NCBI GenBank assembly: GCA_028288765.1
Contig: JAQGHQ010000412.1
Location: forward strand, 1 to 64,000
Source of the DNA: Gemmataceae bacterium
GTDB taxonomy: Bacteria; Planctomycetota; Planctomycetia; Gemmatales; Gemmataceae
Length of the DNA stretch: 64,000 nucleotides
Direction: 5' to 3'
The notes below the pieces were generated by a model. It did no database searches. It was not told the DNA's origin and saw only the letters and a list, made by a program, of their open reading frames with translations. Shown here piece by piece: positions 12,807 to 63,998 of the stretch. Numbering within the stretch: the stretch's first letter is position 1; the number at the start of each line of letters is the position of its first letter. A program made the position numbers and the translations under genes.

Positions 12807-13245
12807 GGGAGCCGCGGAGCGGCGCCGGCCGGTAGCCCGGGGTGAAACCCCGGGCGGACGTGGCCGGTTCTCCGGGGGCCGGGCCGACGGATGCGGCTCC
12901 CGGGGAATCGCAGAGGGGCGGGGCGGGCGTTCGCCCGCCCCGCCGGGGCGAAAACCATCGCGCGGCCGATTGGGAGCCGCGGAGCGGCGCCGGCCGGTAG
13001 CCCGGGGTGAAACCCCGGGCGGACGTGGCCGGTTCTCCGGGGGCCGGGCCGACGGATGCGGCTCCCGGAGAATCGCAGAGGGGCTGGGCGGGCGTTCGCC
13101 CGCCCGGGATTTTATCCCGGGCTACCGGCACCCGCCCCGCCGGGGCGAAAACCACCGCGCGGCCGATTGGGAGCCGCGGAGCGGCGCCGGCCGGTAGCCC
13201 GGGGTGAAACCCCGGGCGGACGTGGCCGGTTCTCCGGGGCGACAC
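12807..13245. repeat. Tandem block of 165-197 bp GC-rich palindromic repeat units (two full plus one partial)
   Basis: 'gggagccgcggagcggcgccggccggtagcccggggtgaaaccccgggcggacgtggccggttctccgggg' recurs at 12807, 12972 and 13169. Confidence 0.92.
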
Positions 13246-25727: not shown

Positions 25728-25844
25728 GAGTTCACCGCGGAGACCGCAAAGACCGCGGAGGAGAAGTCAATCAAACGTCGGAATCGAGAGCCGTTGTAGG
25801 TTCGGTTCTTCCTCTGCGGTCTCCGCGTTCTCCGCGGTGAACTC
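25728..25844. repeat. Intergenic inverted repeat (GAGTTCACCGCGGAGA / TCTCCGCGGTGAACTC)
   Basis: Perfect 16-bp outer arms with imperfect continuation inward (accgcggagg / cctctgcggt). Confidence 0.92.
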
Positions 25845-42779: not shown

Positions 42780-43109
42780 GTCAGTAGCCGGGTTGTTTTA
42801 TCACCACGCAAGGGGGTGGAAGACGGTCCGGGGTTGGGAGCCGCGGAGCGGTGGCGGATAGTAGCCGGGGGTGAAACCCTCGGCGGCCGAGCCGGTTCTC
42901 CAGGGCGGGGGACAATCCGGGGGGATTTACGATTTTGAAGCCGTGAAGCTGAATGAGAAGGCATCGGCTCGCCGGGGGTTTCACCCCCGGCTACCGGCAC
43001 TCGCCCTGCCGGGGCGAAATACCCGTCCCGGAACGGGCCCCCGGTTACATCCTCCAGAGTTGGGCCGTACCGGCCGTTCGCGGCCCGGCTGACGCGACGA
43101 GAGACATCC

Positions 43110-49539: not shown

Positions 49540-49624
49540 CTCACGCAAAGTCGCAAAGACGCAAAGATCGAGAATGAAGACTTCAAATTGATTCTCTCTT
49601 CGCGTCTTTGCGACTTTGCGTGAG
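49540..49624. repeat. Perfect 23-bp inverted repeat (CTCACGCAAAGTCGCAAAGACGC)
   Basis: Arms 49540-49562 and 49602-49624. Confidence 0.95.
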
Positions 49625-55802: not shown

Positions 55803-55874
55803 CGCCTCGTAGGGCACGCACTGCGTGCCGTTTCGCTTGCAAAATCCGGCACGGAGTGCGTGCCCTACGAGGCG
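55803..55874. repeat. 28-bp inverted repeat CGCCTCGTAGGGCACGCACTGCGTGCCG
   Basis: Arms 55803-55830 and 55847-55874, 1 mismatch. Confidence 0.93.
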
Positions 55875-59679: not shown

Positions 59680-59801
59680 CGGGTGGCATGTCCACGGCTT
59701 GGCGTGGACATGTGAAGAGCCGAACGTCAACACAGACCCCGGCGCTCGGCATCCGGTAACGTCTCGCCCATGACCACGCAAAGCCGTGGACATGCCACCC
59801 G
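59680..59801. repeat. 28-bp inverted repeat CGGGTGGCATGTCCACGGCTT-GCGTGG with ~66-bp spacer
   Basis: Arms 59680-59707 and 59774-59801, 1 mismatch; nested catgtccac/gtggacatg hairpin in left arm. Confidence 0.93.
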
Positions 59802-59886: not shown

Positions 59887-60879
59887 TTACTTCGCCCCGC
59901 GAAGTGTTTCCCCCAGCCTCCTCAGCCCCTCCTCGACCGACACCCGCGGCTCGTACCCGAGGTCGCGCCTGGCCGCCGAGATGTCGTACCAGTGCGAGGT
60001 GGACATCTGGTTCGCCACGAACCGGGTCATCGGCGGCTCGCCGGAGAGCCGGAAGACGCGGTACACCCACTCCAGCCCCCACCCGGCGAGACGGGCCTTC
60101 CACACCGACACCGTCCGCGCGACCGGCGGGAGCCCCGCTTCCGCCAGGACGCGGTCGATAAACCCCCACAGGTCGACCGGCTCGCCGTTCGAGATGAAGT
60201 ACACCTTCCCCGCGGCGGGTGCCCTGCCGTCGAGGGCCTCCGCGGCGAGGACGTGGGCGTCGGCCGCGTTGTCGAGGTAGGTGACGTCGACCTTCACCGG
60301 CCGCGACCCGATGCGGCGGAGCGTGCCCTCCCGGGCGCGGGCGAGGACGCGGGGGATCAGGTGCGGGTCTCCCGGCCCCCAGATCAGATGGGGGCGGAGG
60401 GCGACCGTGGCGAGCTGCGGCCCGTTCGCGGCCAGGACCGCCTTCTCGGCGATGGCCTTCGTCTCGGGGTACGGGGCGTCGAAGTGCTTCGGGTACGGGA
60501 CCGCCTCGGTCGCGCCCTCGAGGTCGCCGCCGCTGTGGACCACGCTCGGGGTCGAGGTGTGGACGAGCTTCCGCACCCCGTGCTTCTTGCACGCCGCGAT
60601 CACGTTCTCGGTGCCGGTGACGTTGGTGGCGAAGAAGTCCGCGTACCGGCCCCAGACCCCGGCCTTCGCGGCGACGTGGAACACGACGTCCACCCCGGCG
60701 ACGGCCCGCTCGACGGCCGCGGGATCGGACAGGTCGCCGAGGACCTGCTCGACCCCGAGTTCGTCCAGCCACGGGTAGGCGGTCCGGGTGAACGAACGGA
60801 CCTCCCGCCCCCGCTGCCGGAGCAGCCGGACGACCGCCCCGCCGAGGAACCCGCCGCCGCCGGTGACCAGGGCCTTCAT
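59887..60879 (-). CDS. oleD: NAD(P)-dependent epimerase/3beta-HSD family reductase, OleD-like
   Basis: MKALVTGGGGFLGGAVVRLL; FHVAAKAGVWGRYADFFATNVTGTENVI; YPETKAIAEKAV; ATGA overlap with oleC. Confidence 0.85.
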   Translation of the reverse strand: MKALVTGGGGFLGGAVVRLLRQRGREVRSFTRTAYPWLDELGVEQVLGDLSDPAAVERAVAGVDVVFHVAAKAGVWGRYADFFATNVTGTENVIAACKKHGVRKLVHTSTPSVVHSGGDLEGATEAVPYPKHFDAPYPETKAIAEKAVLAANGPQLATVALRPHLIWGPGDPHLIPRVLARAREGTLRRIGSRPVKVDVTYLDNAADAHVLAAEALDGRAPAAGKVYFISNGEPVDLWGFIDRVLAEAGLPPVARTVSVWKARLAGWGLEWVYRVFRLSGEPPMTRFVANQMSTSHWYDISAARRDLGYEPRVSVEEGLRRLGETLRGAK

Positions 60880-62693
60880 GTCGCAGCCCCCGAACCCGTG
60901 GGCGCCTGCATACGGGTGTTATCCCCGGGGTGCCACCGCTTGCCAAGCGTCTTGTCCGCCCAGACGGCCAGTTTCTCGCGGAAGATCTTCGAGTTGTGCC
61001 GGACGTCCACGGGGAAGCCCAGCCCGCCGTAGAGCAGGAACGTGCCGATCCGCCGGGTGTGCGAGAACTCGGCCGCCCGGGCCCGTAATCTCTGCTCGAC
61101 CACAGGCCAGGTGGGGAACTTGTTCCCTTCCACGCAAAGCACCGGGTATGTCGCCCCGCCCCGGGTTACCCCGACCAGTGCTGTCCGACGGTAGGGGAAC
61201 AGGGTGTTGAAAACGGGCTCGACCTGATCGGTGAACAGCGTTCCGTGGGGGGTCACGACCCGATGCGACTTCCGCCCACAGAACCACAGCCGGCCGAGGT
61301 CGTCGGTGTAGCCCACGTCGCCCATCCGGTGCAGGACATCGCCGGTCTTCGGGTCGCGAATCTTGGCTAGACGCGTCGCCTCCGGGCGGTTGAGGTACTG
61401 CTTCGTCACCACCGGCCCGCGGACCACGAACTCGCCGATCTCGCCCGGCGGCAGACAGCAGGACTCGTCCCACTCCGGGACCGGCTCGTCACCGATGGGG
61501 ACGACGTACACCCGCATCCCGGCGACCGGCCGGCCGACGCAAACGCCCTTCCCCTGGTCGGTAAGGTACCGGGTTTCGGTGAGGATTTCGCGGCTACCGA
61601 TGTTCGCGACCGGAAGGGCCTCCGTCGCCCCGTAGGGGGTGAAGACCTGAGCCCCGTCAGGAAGAATGGAGGCGAACCGTTCGATCGCCGGGGCCGACGC
61701 CGGGGCGCCGGCCGAAATGGCGCGGCGGAGCGACGGGAGCGAAGAACCTAACCCCCCAACCCCCTTCCCTGAAAAGGAAGGGGGAGTCAGAGCGGGGTCT
61801 TTCTCCCCTCCCTTCTTAGGGGAGGGGTTGGGGAGGGGTTGCATCCCGCCCCACTCGCCGAGCCGGCGGATCACCGCCGGGGACCCGAACAGGTTGGTCA
61901 CTCCGAACTGCCGGATCTGGGCGACCGCCTTCCGCGGGTCGATCCGGGCCGGGCGGGTCGGGTCCATGTCGGGGATCACACAGGTCATCCCAAGGGCGGG
62001 ACCGAAGAGCGCGAACAGCGGGAACGTACACAGGTCGATCTCGCCCGGCTCGATCCCGTAGGTCGCCTTCAGCATCCCGACCTGGGCGGCGAAGACCCCG
62101 TGCGGGTACACCGCCCCCTTCGCCACCCCGGTGCTGCCGCTGGTGAACAGGACCGCGGCGGTCTCGTCGGCGGAAATGTCCGGTGCCGGGAACGGTCCGC
62201 GGGCCGCGCCCGCCGCCCGGAGCTGCGACAGCGAGGTGTCGCAGAAGAACCGCCGCCGGCCGGCGTTCACCGTGGTCCGGACGGTCTTTCGGCCCCAGCC
62301 CAGGACGCGGCGGGCGAGGTGAGCCTTGGGGATGGCGACGAACGCCTCGGGTTCGGCCTCGGCGAGACACTTGCCCAGGTTCTTGACGCCCATCCCCGGG
62401 TCGATCAGTACCGGGACTGCCGCCACCTTGAACAGCGCGAAGGTGAGGGCGAAGAAGTCGGGCGAGGGCGGGACCATGAGCGCGGTGCGGGTGCCGCGGG
62501 CGATCCCGGCGGCGGTCAGCCCGTGGGCGACGGCGTCGCTGTCGGCGTGGAGCTGGGCGAACGTGACGGTGAGATGATCGCTCGGCCCGTGGGGCTTGAC
62601 GCCGCGGACCGGGTAGTGGATCGCCACCCGGTCCGGCTCGGCGGCGGCCATCCGGGCCAGGTGCGACGCGACATTGAGAGGGGAGAGGGACAT
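60876..62693 (-). CDS. oleC: AMP-binding synthetase, OleC-like (beta-lactone synthetase family)
   Basis: AAVLFTSGSTGVAKGAVYPHGVF; IDLCTFPLFALFGPALGMTCVIPDMDPTRPARIDP; FGVTNLFGSPAVIRRLGEWGG; VFTPYGATEALP. Confidence 0.87.
   Translation of the reverse strand: MSLSPLNVASHLARMAAAEPDRVAIHYPVRGVKPHGPSDHLTVTFAQLHADSDAVAHGLTAAGIARGTRTALMVPPSPDFFALTFALFKVAAVPVLIDPGMGVKNLGKCLAEAEPEAFVAIPKAHLARRVLGWGRKTVRTTVNAGRRRFFCDTSLSQLRAAGAARGPFPAPDISADETAAVLFTSGSTGVAKGAVYPHGVFAAQVGMLKATYGIEPGEIDLCTFPLFALFGPALGMTCVIPDMDPTRPARIDPRKAVAQIRQFGVTNLFGSPAVIRRLGEWGGMQPLPNPSPKKGGEKDPALTPPSFSGKGVGGLGSSLPSLRRAISAGAPASAPAIERFASILPDGAQVFTPYGATEALPVANIGSREILTETRYLTDQGKGVCVGRPVAGMRVYVVPIGDEPVPEWDESCCLPPGEIGEFVVRGPVVTKQYLNRPEATRLAKIRDPKTGDVLHRMGDVGYTDDLGRLWFCGRKSHRVVTPHGTLFTDQVEPVFNTLFPYRRTALVGVTRGGATYPVLCVEGNKFPTWPVVEQRLRARAAEFSHTRRIGTFLLYGGLGFPVDVRHNSKIFREKLAVWADKTLGKRWHPGDNTRMQAPTGSGAAT
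61748..61841. repeat. C-rich/G-rich palindromic element inside oleC coding sequence
   Basis: cccccttcc...ggaaggggg (61760-61768/61776-61784) and cccctccc...ggggagggg hairpins; encodes PLPNPSPKKGGEKDPALTPPSFSGKGVGGLG. Confidence 0.85.
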
Positions 62694-62706
62694 TGCGGGG
62701 TGTTGT

Positions 62707-62769
62707 AGGGCACGCACCGCGTGCCGTCTTCGTCGTAGATCGTGACGCGGGGCACGCGGTGCGTGCCCT
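62707..62769. repeat. 20-bp inverted repeat AGGGCACGCACCGCGTGCC(G/C)
   Basis: Arms 62707-62726 and 62750-62769, 1 mismatch; same family as 55803-55874. Confidence 0.9.
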
Positions 62770-62787
62770 GCGAGAAAGCCGATGTTC

Positions 62788-63036
62788 TCATTCCTCAGGA
62801 GGCCGTTCCGCCGCCCGGGCCTTGAGGGCGCCGGCCGGCTTGAACCGCACGACCCTCTTCGCCGGGATATCGATCCGCTCGCCGGTTCGCGGGTTGCGGG
62901 CCCGCCGTGCCTTCCAGAGGTATAACTCGAACACCCCGAACCCGTCGACCTCGGCCCGGCCATGTTTCAACAAGATTTCTGCCACCGTTTCGAATGCCCG
63001 ACGGATCGCGTCCGACGAGAAATCGTGTGTGGTCAT
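62788..63036 (-). CDS. HU/IHF-family DNA-binding protein
   Basis: IRRAFETVAEILLKHGRAEVDGFGVFELYLWKARRARNPRTGERIDIPAKRVVRFKPAGALK. Confidence 0.88.
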   Translation of the reverse strand: MTTHDFSSDAIRRAFETVAEILLKHGRAEVDGFGVFELYLWKARRARNPRTGERIDIPAKRVVRFKPAGALKARAAERPPEE

Positions 63037-63041
63037 GACGG

Positions 63042-63998
63042 TCACCGGATCGGGTGCTTCGCCAGGAACTCCCGCACCCGCATGATAACCTCGTCCCCGG
63101 CGTCTTCGAGCAGGTAGTGCCCGCAGTCCGGCCAGGTGTGCGTTTCCGCGTGCGGGAAGTGCCGTTGCCAGTCCGCGAGGAAGTGCCGGTCGAACACGAA
63201 GTCCCGCATGCCCCAGAGGAGGAGCGTGGGCACGGCCCGGAAGTTCGCGAGCGACGCTTCGGTGGCGCTCACGATGTCGTACCCGGGGTCGGCCGGCGCG
63301 AGCGGGATCGTCTGGACGAACTTCAGCACCGCGACCCGGTGTTCGGGCGTGTCGTACGGCATCAGGTACATCCGCCGCACGTCGTCCGGGAGGCTCTTGC
63401 GGGTGACGCACCACCGCGCGGCGAGCCGGCAGAAGGCGTTCTTCTTGAGAATCAGCCACGCGCCGAGCCTGGTATTCCGGCCGAGCCGGAGCGCCCACGG
63501 GAACGGCTTCGCCTTCGGCAAATGGAACGCCCCGGTGTTCGACACCACCAGCCGGTTGATCCGCTCCGGGTGCCGGGCCGCGAACCCCATCCCGATCATC
63601 CCGCCCCAGTCGTGCAGGACGAGCGTCAGGTTCTCCCGCAGCCCGAGGTGGTCGAGCAGGGCTTCGAGGTCGTCGACCCGCGACTTCAGGGAGTAGTCGT
63701 AGAGCGCTTCCGCCGGCTTGTCGGAGAGCCCGCACCCGATGTGATCGGGCGCGACGCAGCGGTACGAGTCGCGGAGGGCGAGGACGAGGTTGCGGTAGTA
63801 GAAGCTCCAGGTCGGGTTCCCGTGGAGCATGACCACCGGGTCGCCGGCGCCCTCGTCGAGGTAGTTCAGGGCGAGGGTGCTCCGGCCGAGCCGGTCGGGG
63901 CGGTGGAAGACATGGCTCCGGTCGCCGGTCTCGGTCCGGAAGGGATACAGGTGCCGGAAACCCGGCTCGGCGAACGGCCCGATCGACGTGGTGGTCAC
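63042..63998 (-). CDS. oleB: Alpha/beta hydrolase, OleB-like (haloalkane-dehalogenase-type); start at window edge, may extend beyond
   Basis: VVMLHGNPTWSFYYRNLV; VAPDHIGCGLSDKP; LVLHDWGGMIGMGFAARHPE. Confidence 0.83.
   Translation of the reverse strand: MTTTSIGPFAEPGFRHLYPFRTETGDRSHVFHRPDRLGRSTLALNYLDEGAGDPVVMLHGNPTWSFYYRNLVLALRDSYRCVAPDHIGCGLSDKPAEALYDYSLKSRVDDLEALLDHLGLRENLTLVLHDWGGMIGMGFAARHPERINRLVVSNTGAFHLPKAKPFPWALRLGRNTRLGAWLILKKNAFCRLAARWCVTRKSLPDDVRRMYLMPYDTPEHRVAVLKFVQTIPLAPADPGYDIVSATEASLANFRAVPTLLLWGMRDFVFDRHFLADWQRHFPHAETHTWPDCGHYLLEDAGDEVIMRVREFLAKHPIR

Follow-up and report, generated by a model that had tools for sequence, protein, structure and literature searches.

The oleC locus and its insert

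Toward the end of the window, the whole stretch of 64,000 nucleotides of Gemmataceae DNA that was analyzed, lie genes of an ole cluster (Table 1). In profile searches, the ORF at the center of this study scored 691 bits against NF006754 and 657 (NF045786) and 585 bits against the OleC equivalogs, whose strict cut-offs of 900 and 850 bits were not reached. It was considered OleC-like from its ANL fold, observed by structure comparison, and from its OleD-like and OleB-like neighbors. The product of the upstream gene is presumably OleB, as judged from gene context. A small ORF for an HU-like DNA-binding protein (62788-63037, reverse strand), recognized by eye only, is located between the oleB-like gene and oleC.

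Table 1. Features of the oleC region, numbered from the first letter of the window
Feature	Position	Strand	Basis or remark
oleC (olefin beta-lactone synthetase-like ANL enzyme, 605 aa)	60879..62693	-	Stop at 60876-60878; profile scores, fold match
34-codon insert, OleC loop residues ~284-317, palindromic element in frame	61743..61844	-	Sequence, AlphaFold2
Copy of genome-wide repeat family	61741..61841		Terminal inverted repeat consensus GGAAGAAACC...GGTTCTTCC
First inner hairpin, approximately CCCCCTTCCCTGAAAAGGAAGGGGG	61761..61786
Second inner hairpin, approximately CTCCCCTCCCTTCTTAGGGGAGGGG	61804..61828
oleD-like 2-alkyl-3-oxoalkanoate reductase, next ole cluster gene	59887..60879	-	445 bits to NF042422, cut-off 580
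oleB-like alpha/beta hydrolase (haloalkane dehalogenase-like), ole cluster gene upstream	63042..63998	-

Between GEWGG and SLPSLRR, the OleC-like ORF contains 34 extra codons, which encode the peptide MQPLPNPSPKKGGEKDPALTPPSFSGKGVGGLGS. An earlier note on this DNA had placed about 31-35 extra residues after GEWGG, at 61735-61850, and had attributed them to two hairpins of a palindromic repeat; the position proved right within a few bases and was refined to that in Table 1. The insert DNA is one long imperfect palindrome containing the two hairpins. When folded as RNA, it gave a minimum free energy of -67.4 kcal/mol (z = -3.45), and none of 200 shuffles folded equally well. No known RNA family matched at the gathering score, and the only matches, to microRNA precursors in the hairpin, were sub-threshold. 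An artefact of gene annotation was ruled out because conserved OleC sequence runs on in the same frame on either side.

We then compared the site among 80 OleC-like proteins from planctomycetes, proteobacteria, Desulfuromonadales-type bacteria, Verrucomicrobia, and others. A loop of nine residues was found in 64 of the 80, across many phyla, indicating that OleC does not ordinarily have this segment; the earlier note, too, had not expected such an insert in this enzyme. An AlphaFold2 model built from 29 sequences (mean pLDDT 86.3, pTM 0.85) matched ANL enzymes in fold comparison; a sequence search for a close solved OleC structure returned only distant ANL enzymes. In the model, the insert connects helix 272-284 to strand 324-327; its residues 287-314 have pLDDT values below 50, while the remaining ANL fold is confident. 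The insert is thus a predicted disordered loop. Separately, three Schlesneria OleC proteins (L117, L123, and L136) have loops of 23-57 residues at this site without an obvious palindrome, which are possibly decayed inserts.

The repeat family and its in-frame copies in the host genome

The host genome (G000; 10.06 Mb in 615 contigs) was searched for relatives of the insert. About 40 full-length relatives were found at 80-90% identity, and a 24-base half-element pattern gave 58 matches, compared with 0 for the reversed control. In all, the genome holds about 58-59 copies, so that the insert is indeed a repeat. Of the two findings that would have refuted the earlier note, neither was made: most OleC homologs have no equally long segment, and other copies are many. 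The consensus is ~100 bp long, has the ends GGAAGAAACC and GGTTCTTCC as imperfect terminal inverted repeats, and has, on each strand, one frame that is open from end to end (NPSPGPSPKKGGEEDPVPAPPSFPGKGVGGLGS and EEPNPPTPFPGKEGGAGTGSSSPPFLGEGPGEG). The copy in oleC is imperfect at the oleC-5' end. Nearly all intragenic copies use either of the two open consensus frames, with L026 as an exception.

The reading frame was examined with a codon-usage score, trained on the genes of the window, on both flanks of 59 copies; the frame calls are therefore predictions from codon usage. In 33 of the 59 copies, one frame was kept across the element with no stop, and a further in-frame copy in an aldehyde dehydrogenase gene (L005) was recognized by domain continuity, raising the number to 34. 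The intragenic copies that the earlier note had suggested looking for are therefore abundant. Pfam matches placed copies in, among others, PheT, GlnE, penicillin amidase, UPF0261, DUF7133, and DUF1553 proteins, a ketosynthase/acyltransferase (PKS-like) protein, and a tricorn-like protease; glycerol kinase, an RND transporter, and NusB were read as hosts from sequence only. A copy 2.4 kb past the window end (L006, G000:C120:66449-66553) lies in frame in a FabA-domain protein. The frame was kept in 36 of the 45 copies with a same-strand coding signal on both sides (P = 1.7e-10 against 1/3), a test that is approximate because this class includes gene junctions. Among the copies whose ends could be delimited by pattern, the sense frame was open in 24 of 25 in-frame copies and 9 of 18 others (P = 0.0007), and one length phase was kept in 19 of 25 and 6 of 18, respectively (P = 0.011). 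This bias toward an open frame and one length phase is a prediction of a selective filter.

Five DUF1553 copies in the host genome (L012, L013, L014, L215, and L227) carry the element at the same site, HPELLDWLA-EF | WSLK-LHRLIVTS. The three paralogs that were compared are 38-51% identical, and the elements of L012 and L014 are 87% identical. Palindromic in-frame inserts were also found in the DUF1553 loop of G025, G027, and G019, giving four genomes together with the host; in most of the paralogs measured in these three, the loop is otherwise 3-4 residues long. The spread among DUF1553 paralogs could partly be due to gene conversion. The oleC case is not readily explained in this way, because the families differ between species.

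A scan for target-site duplications was negative, the best offset fitting only 2 of 27 copies. The genome has six Y1 transposase genes (PF01797), and no element copy was found beside any of them within flanks of ~1.5 kb, one of which ended at a contig end; Y1/RAYT transposases were accordingly rejected as movers. As neither a target-site duplication nor a flanking transposase was detected, copy number and empty sites are the only observations that point to mobility. Apart from this family, a GTAG-tagged palindrome, GTAGCCCGGGGTGAAACCCCGGGC, occurs at 12832-13217 and 42861-42994 and is a second, REP-like repeat family in this genome; the window holds six matches to it where 0 would be expected. 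Hairpins of the form GGCACGC..GCGTGCCCTAC are present at 55803-55874 and 62705-62771, the latter just upstream of oleC, and further long inverted repeats lie in or near intergenic stretches (25728-25844, 49540-49624, and 59680-59801).

We consider it probable, at roughly 70%, that the oleC insert is one copy of a mobile, non-autonomous palindromic repeat, and that frame-preserving copies have been selected in permissive loops.

The same loop in other Gemmataceae

Palindromic inserts were scored in this loop in 16 of 29 Gemmataceae OleC proteins. The only other length-variable site, at query residues 490-500, has at most 14 extra residues, and the loop is the main OleC site for inserts longer than 14 aa. 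Different palindromes fill it in other species, and at least four families (B, C, D, and E) are high-copy at home, with 0 matches in the host genome. The insert family of G025, also found in G026, G023, and G095, gave 55-84 matches per genome. The insert unit of G019 gave 75 matches in G019 and 84 in G020, the G020 insert 84 in G020, and the G013 insert 58 in G013, and none of these matched the host genome; the counts, taken among the matches listed, are not copy numbers because both strands of near-palindromes are counted. The copy checks covered these inserts and that of G011, which is present as a single copy and was rejected as a repeat family. Inserts are also carried by G054 (L045) and G045 (L059). 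Inserts in the style of the host element, as grouped by eye, were seen in G018, G027, G010, G012, and G009. At the few loci examined, families C, D, and E were not seen in frame in other genes, and the codon model, trained on the host, is perhaps poor in those genomes. Inserts in the same loop are carried by the one-to-few-contig assemblies G010, G012, G027, and G023, and an artefact of draft assembly was ruled out on this basis. These results indicate that the insert is no one-off oddity, and that different palindromes repeatedly enter the same loop across Gemmataceae.

Filled loops had hairpin z-scores between -2.8 and -12, and values of about -1 to +1.6 were obtained for those scored as empty or non-palindromic. 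The presence at one position of different sequences that are nearly all strongly folded would fit a function of the hairpin at the mRNA level, such as ribosome pausing or mRNA stability in oleC, for which selection would recruit unrelated palindromes. However, many Gemmataceae OleC genes have no hairpin at this site, the loop is only nine residues long in most of the wider homologs (64/80), and the same elements occur in dozens of unrelated genes. In G092, G075, and G076, moreover, the loop is ~25 residues long with no significant palindrome. We therefore regard an mRNA-level role as improbable.

In a tree built from OleC without the loop, parsimony required at least 8 changes of presence and at least 11 changes of family; these are minima on an uncertain, weakly resolved tree, in which 10 of 26 inner branches are open forks. 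Two unrelated families, E and B, occupy the loop in the sister species G013 and G025, respectively (support 98/94). In G012, the loop contains a 113-codon insert made of at least two elements with the frame open, and G009 has a related tandem insert that shares its first element. Both the sister pair and the tandem inserts are compatible with targeted re-insertion, in which a hairpin would attract, or be replaced by, further palindromes through nested insertion or arm recombination, making the loop a hotspot of mechanism and not of selection alone. On the tree, however, some empty loops neighbor filled ones (G006 beside G000, and G016 beside G019 and G023), so that empty sites must get filled too, and a target-site signature was not found. 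Targeted re-insertion is therefore doubtful.

In G009 (L049), the oleC frame is broken inside the tandem insert by stops and a frame change, giving two ORFs; the broken frame is a cost of insertion. This break speaks against a protein function gained by the disordered peptide, as a linker or a contact in Ole protein assembly, as does the fact that the families encode different residues, with no peptide conserved between species. Although the inserts are in frame in many species and the in-frame copies keep frame and length phase, such a gain of function is the least credible of the alternatives, and very improbable. Most probably, the insertion has added a disordered loop that is neutral or carries a mild cost, rather than a new function. 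The earlier note had described the repeat as domesticated in frame; it is in frame, but "domesticated" implies a function, which no finding here supports.

Under selection of frame-preserving copies of a mobile repeat, non-autonomous RPE/REP-like palindromes would insert broadly through the genome, and insertions that break the frame or strike a structured part would be purged. Those in a few very tolerant surface loops would survive, and the same loop would therefore be filled independently many times. Certain protein loops appear to be repeated landing spots, because related species independently hold different palindromes in one OleC loop. A further step, which we put forward only tentatively, is that palindromic repeats across Gemmataceae converge on OleC residues 284-317 and on the DUF1553 HPELLDWLA/WSLK loop as landing pads, where families swap by a site-favoring mechanism and which would offer a long-term niche for selfish DNA.

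Relation to known palindromic repeats

Rickettsia palindromic elements (RPEs; Ogata et al. 2000, reviewed in PMC2229807 and PMC10969869) are palindromes of about 100-150 bp in several families. They occur both in intergenic DNA and, in frame, within unrelated conserved proteins, with nearly half intragenic in R. conorii. The Gemmataceae element is likewise a multi-copy palindrome of ~100 bp, in frame in unrelated protein genes (33-34 of 59 copies). It differs in being GC-rich, in residing in a 10-Mb planctomycete, and in that unrelated families recurrently fill one loop of orthologs. A CGTC tetranucleotide marks one RPE end (PMC3733652), whereas the consensus ends here carry no CGTC tag. Intragenic GTAG/CGTC REPs have units of 20-40 bp that are often paired, and most REPs are intergenic; Opitutus terrae, a member of the PVC group, is among the species with intragenic ones, and some within ORFs encode 20-30 residues, for which the authors suggest tolerance in loops or linkers (PMC3733652). 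Our element is also a short palindrome with some copies within ORFs, but its consensus bears neither the GTAG nor the CGTC tag, more than half of its copies are in frame in genes, and, unlike GTAG REPs with their RAYTs, it flanks none of the six Y1 transposase genes. ERIC/RU-1 and Correia MITEs are non-autonomous, ~100-170 bp long, and have terminal inverted repeats and open frames, with some in-frame fusions (PMC2229807, PMC2759123). The imperfect terminal inverted repeats are shared with these MITEs, but not a detected target-site duplication or a cognate transposase.

The likeness to RPEs drawn in the earlier note thus holds for copy number, for in-frame residence in unrelated conserved proteins, and for the predicted disordered loop, and fails for the end tags; the element was assigned to neither RPEs nor REPs because the CGTC and GTAG tags are absent. 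Judged by features, it would work like an RPE, and RPEs and intragenic REPs appear to be its closest kin. A literature search that did not cover the original RPE papers turned up no account of elements of this kind in proteins of Gemmataceae, nor of several families entering one loop.

The best-known examples of in-frame palindromic repeats come from Rickettsia and Wolbachia. The present ones reside in a planctomycete with a 10-Mb genome, at a scale similar to that in those genera, and the comparison of several species makes them a natural experiment instead of an anecdote. Since the same loop repeatedly receives unrelated inserts, it can be asked directly whether selection or the inserting machinery chooses the site. 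The system bears on how proteins gain long disordered loops, and it is a reason for caution with the Pro/Gly-rich inserts of planctomycete proteins, which may be translated repeats.
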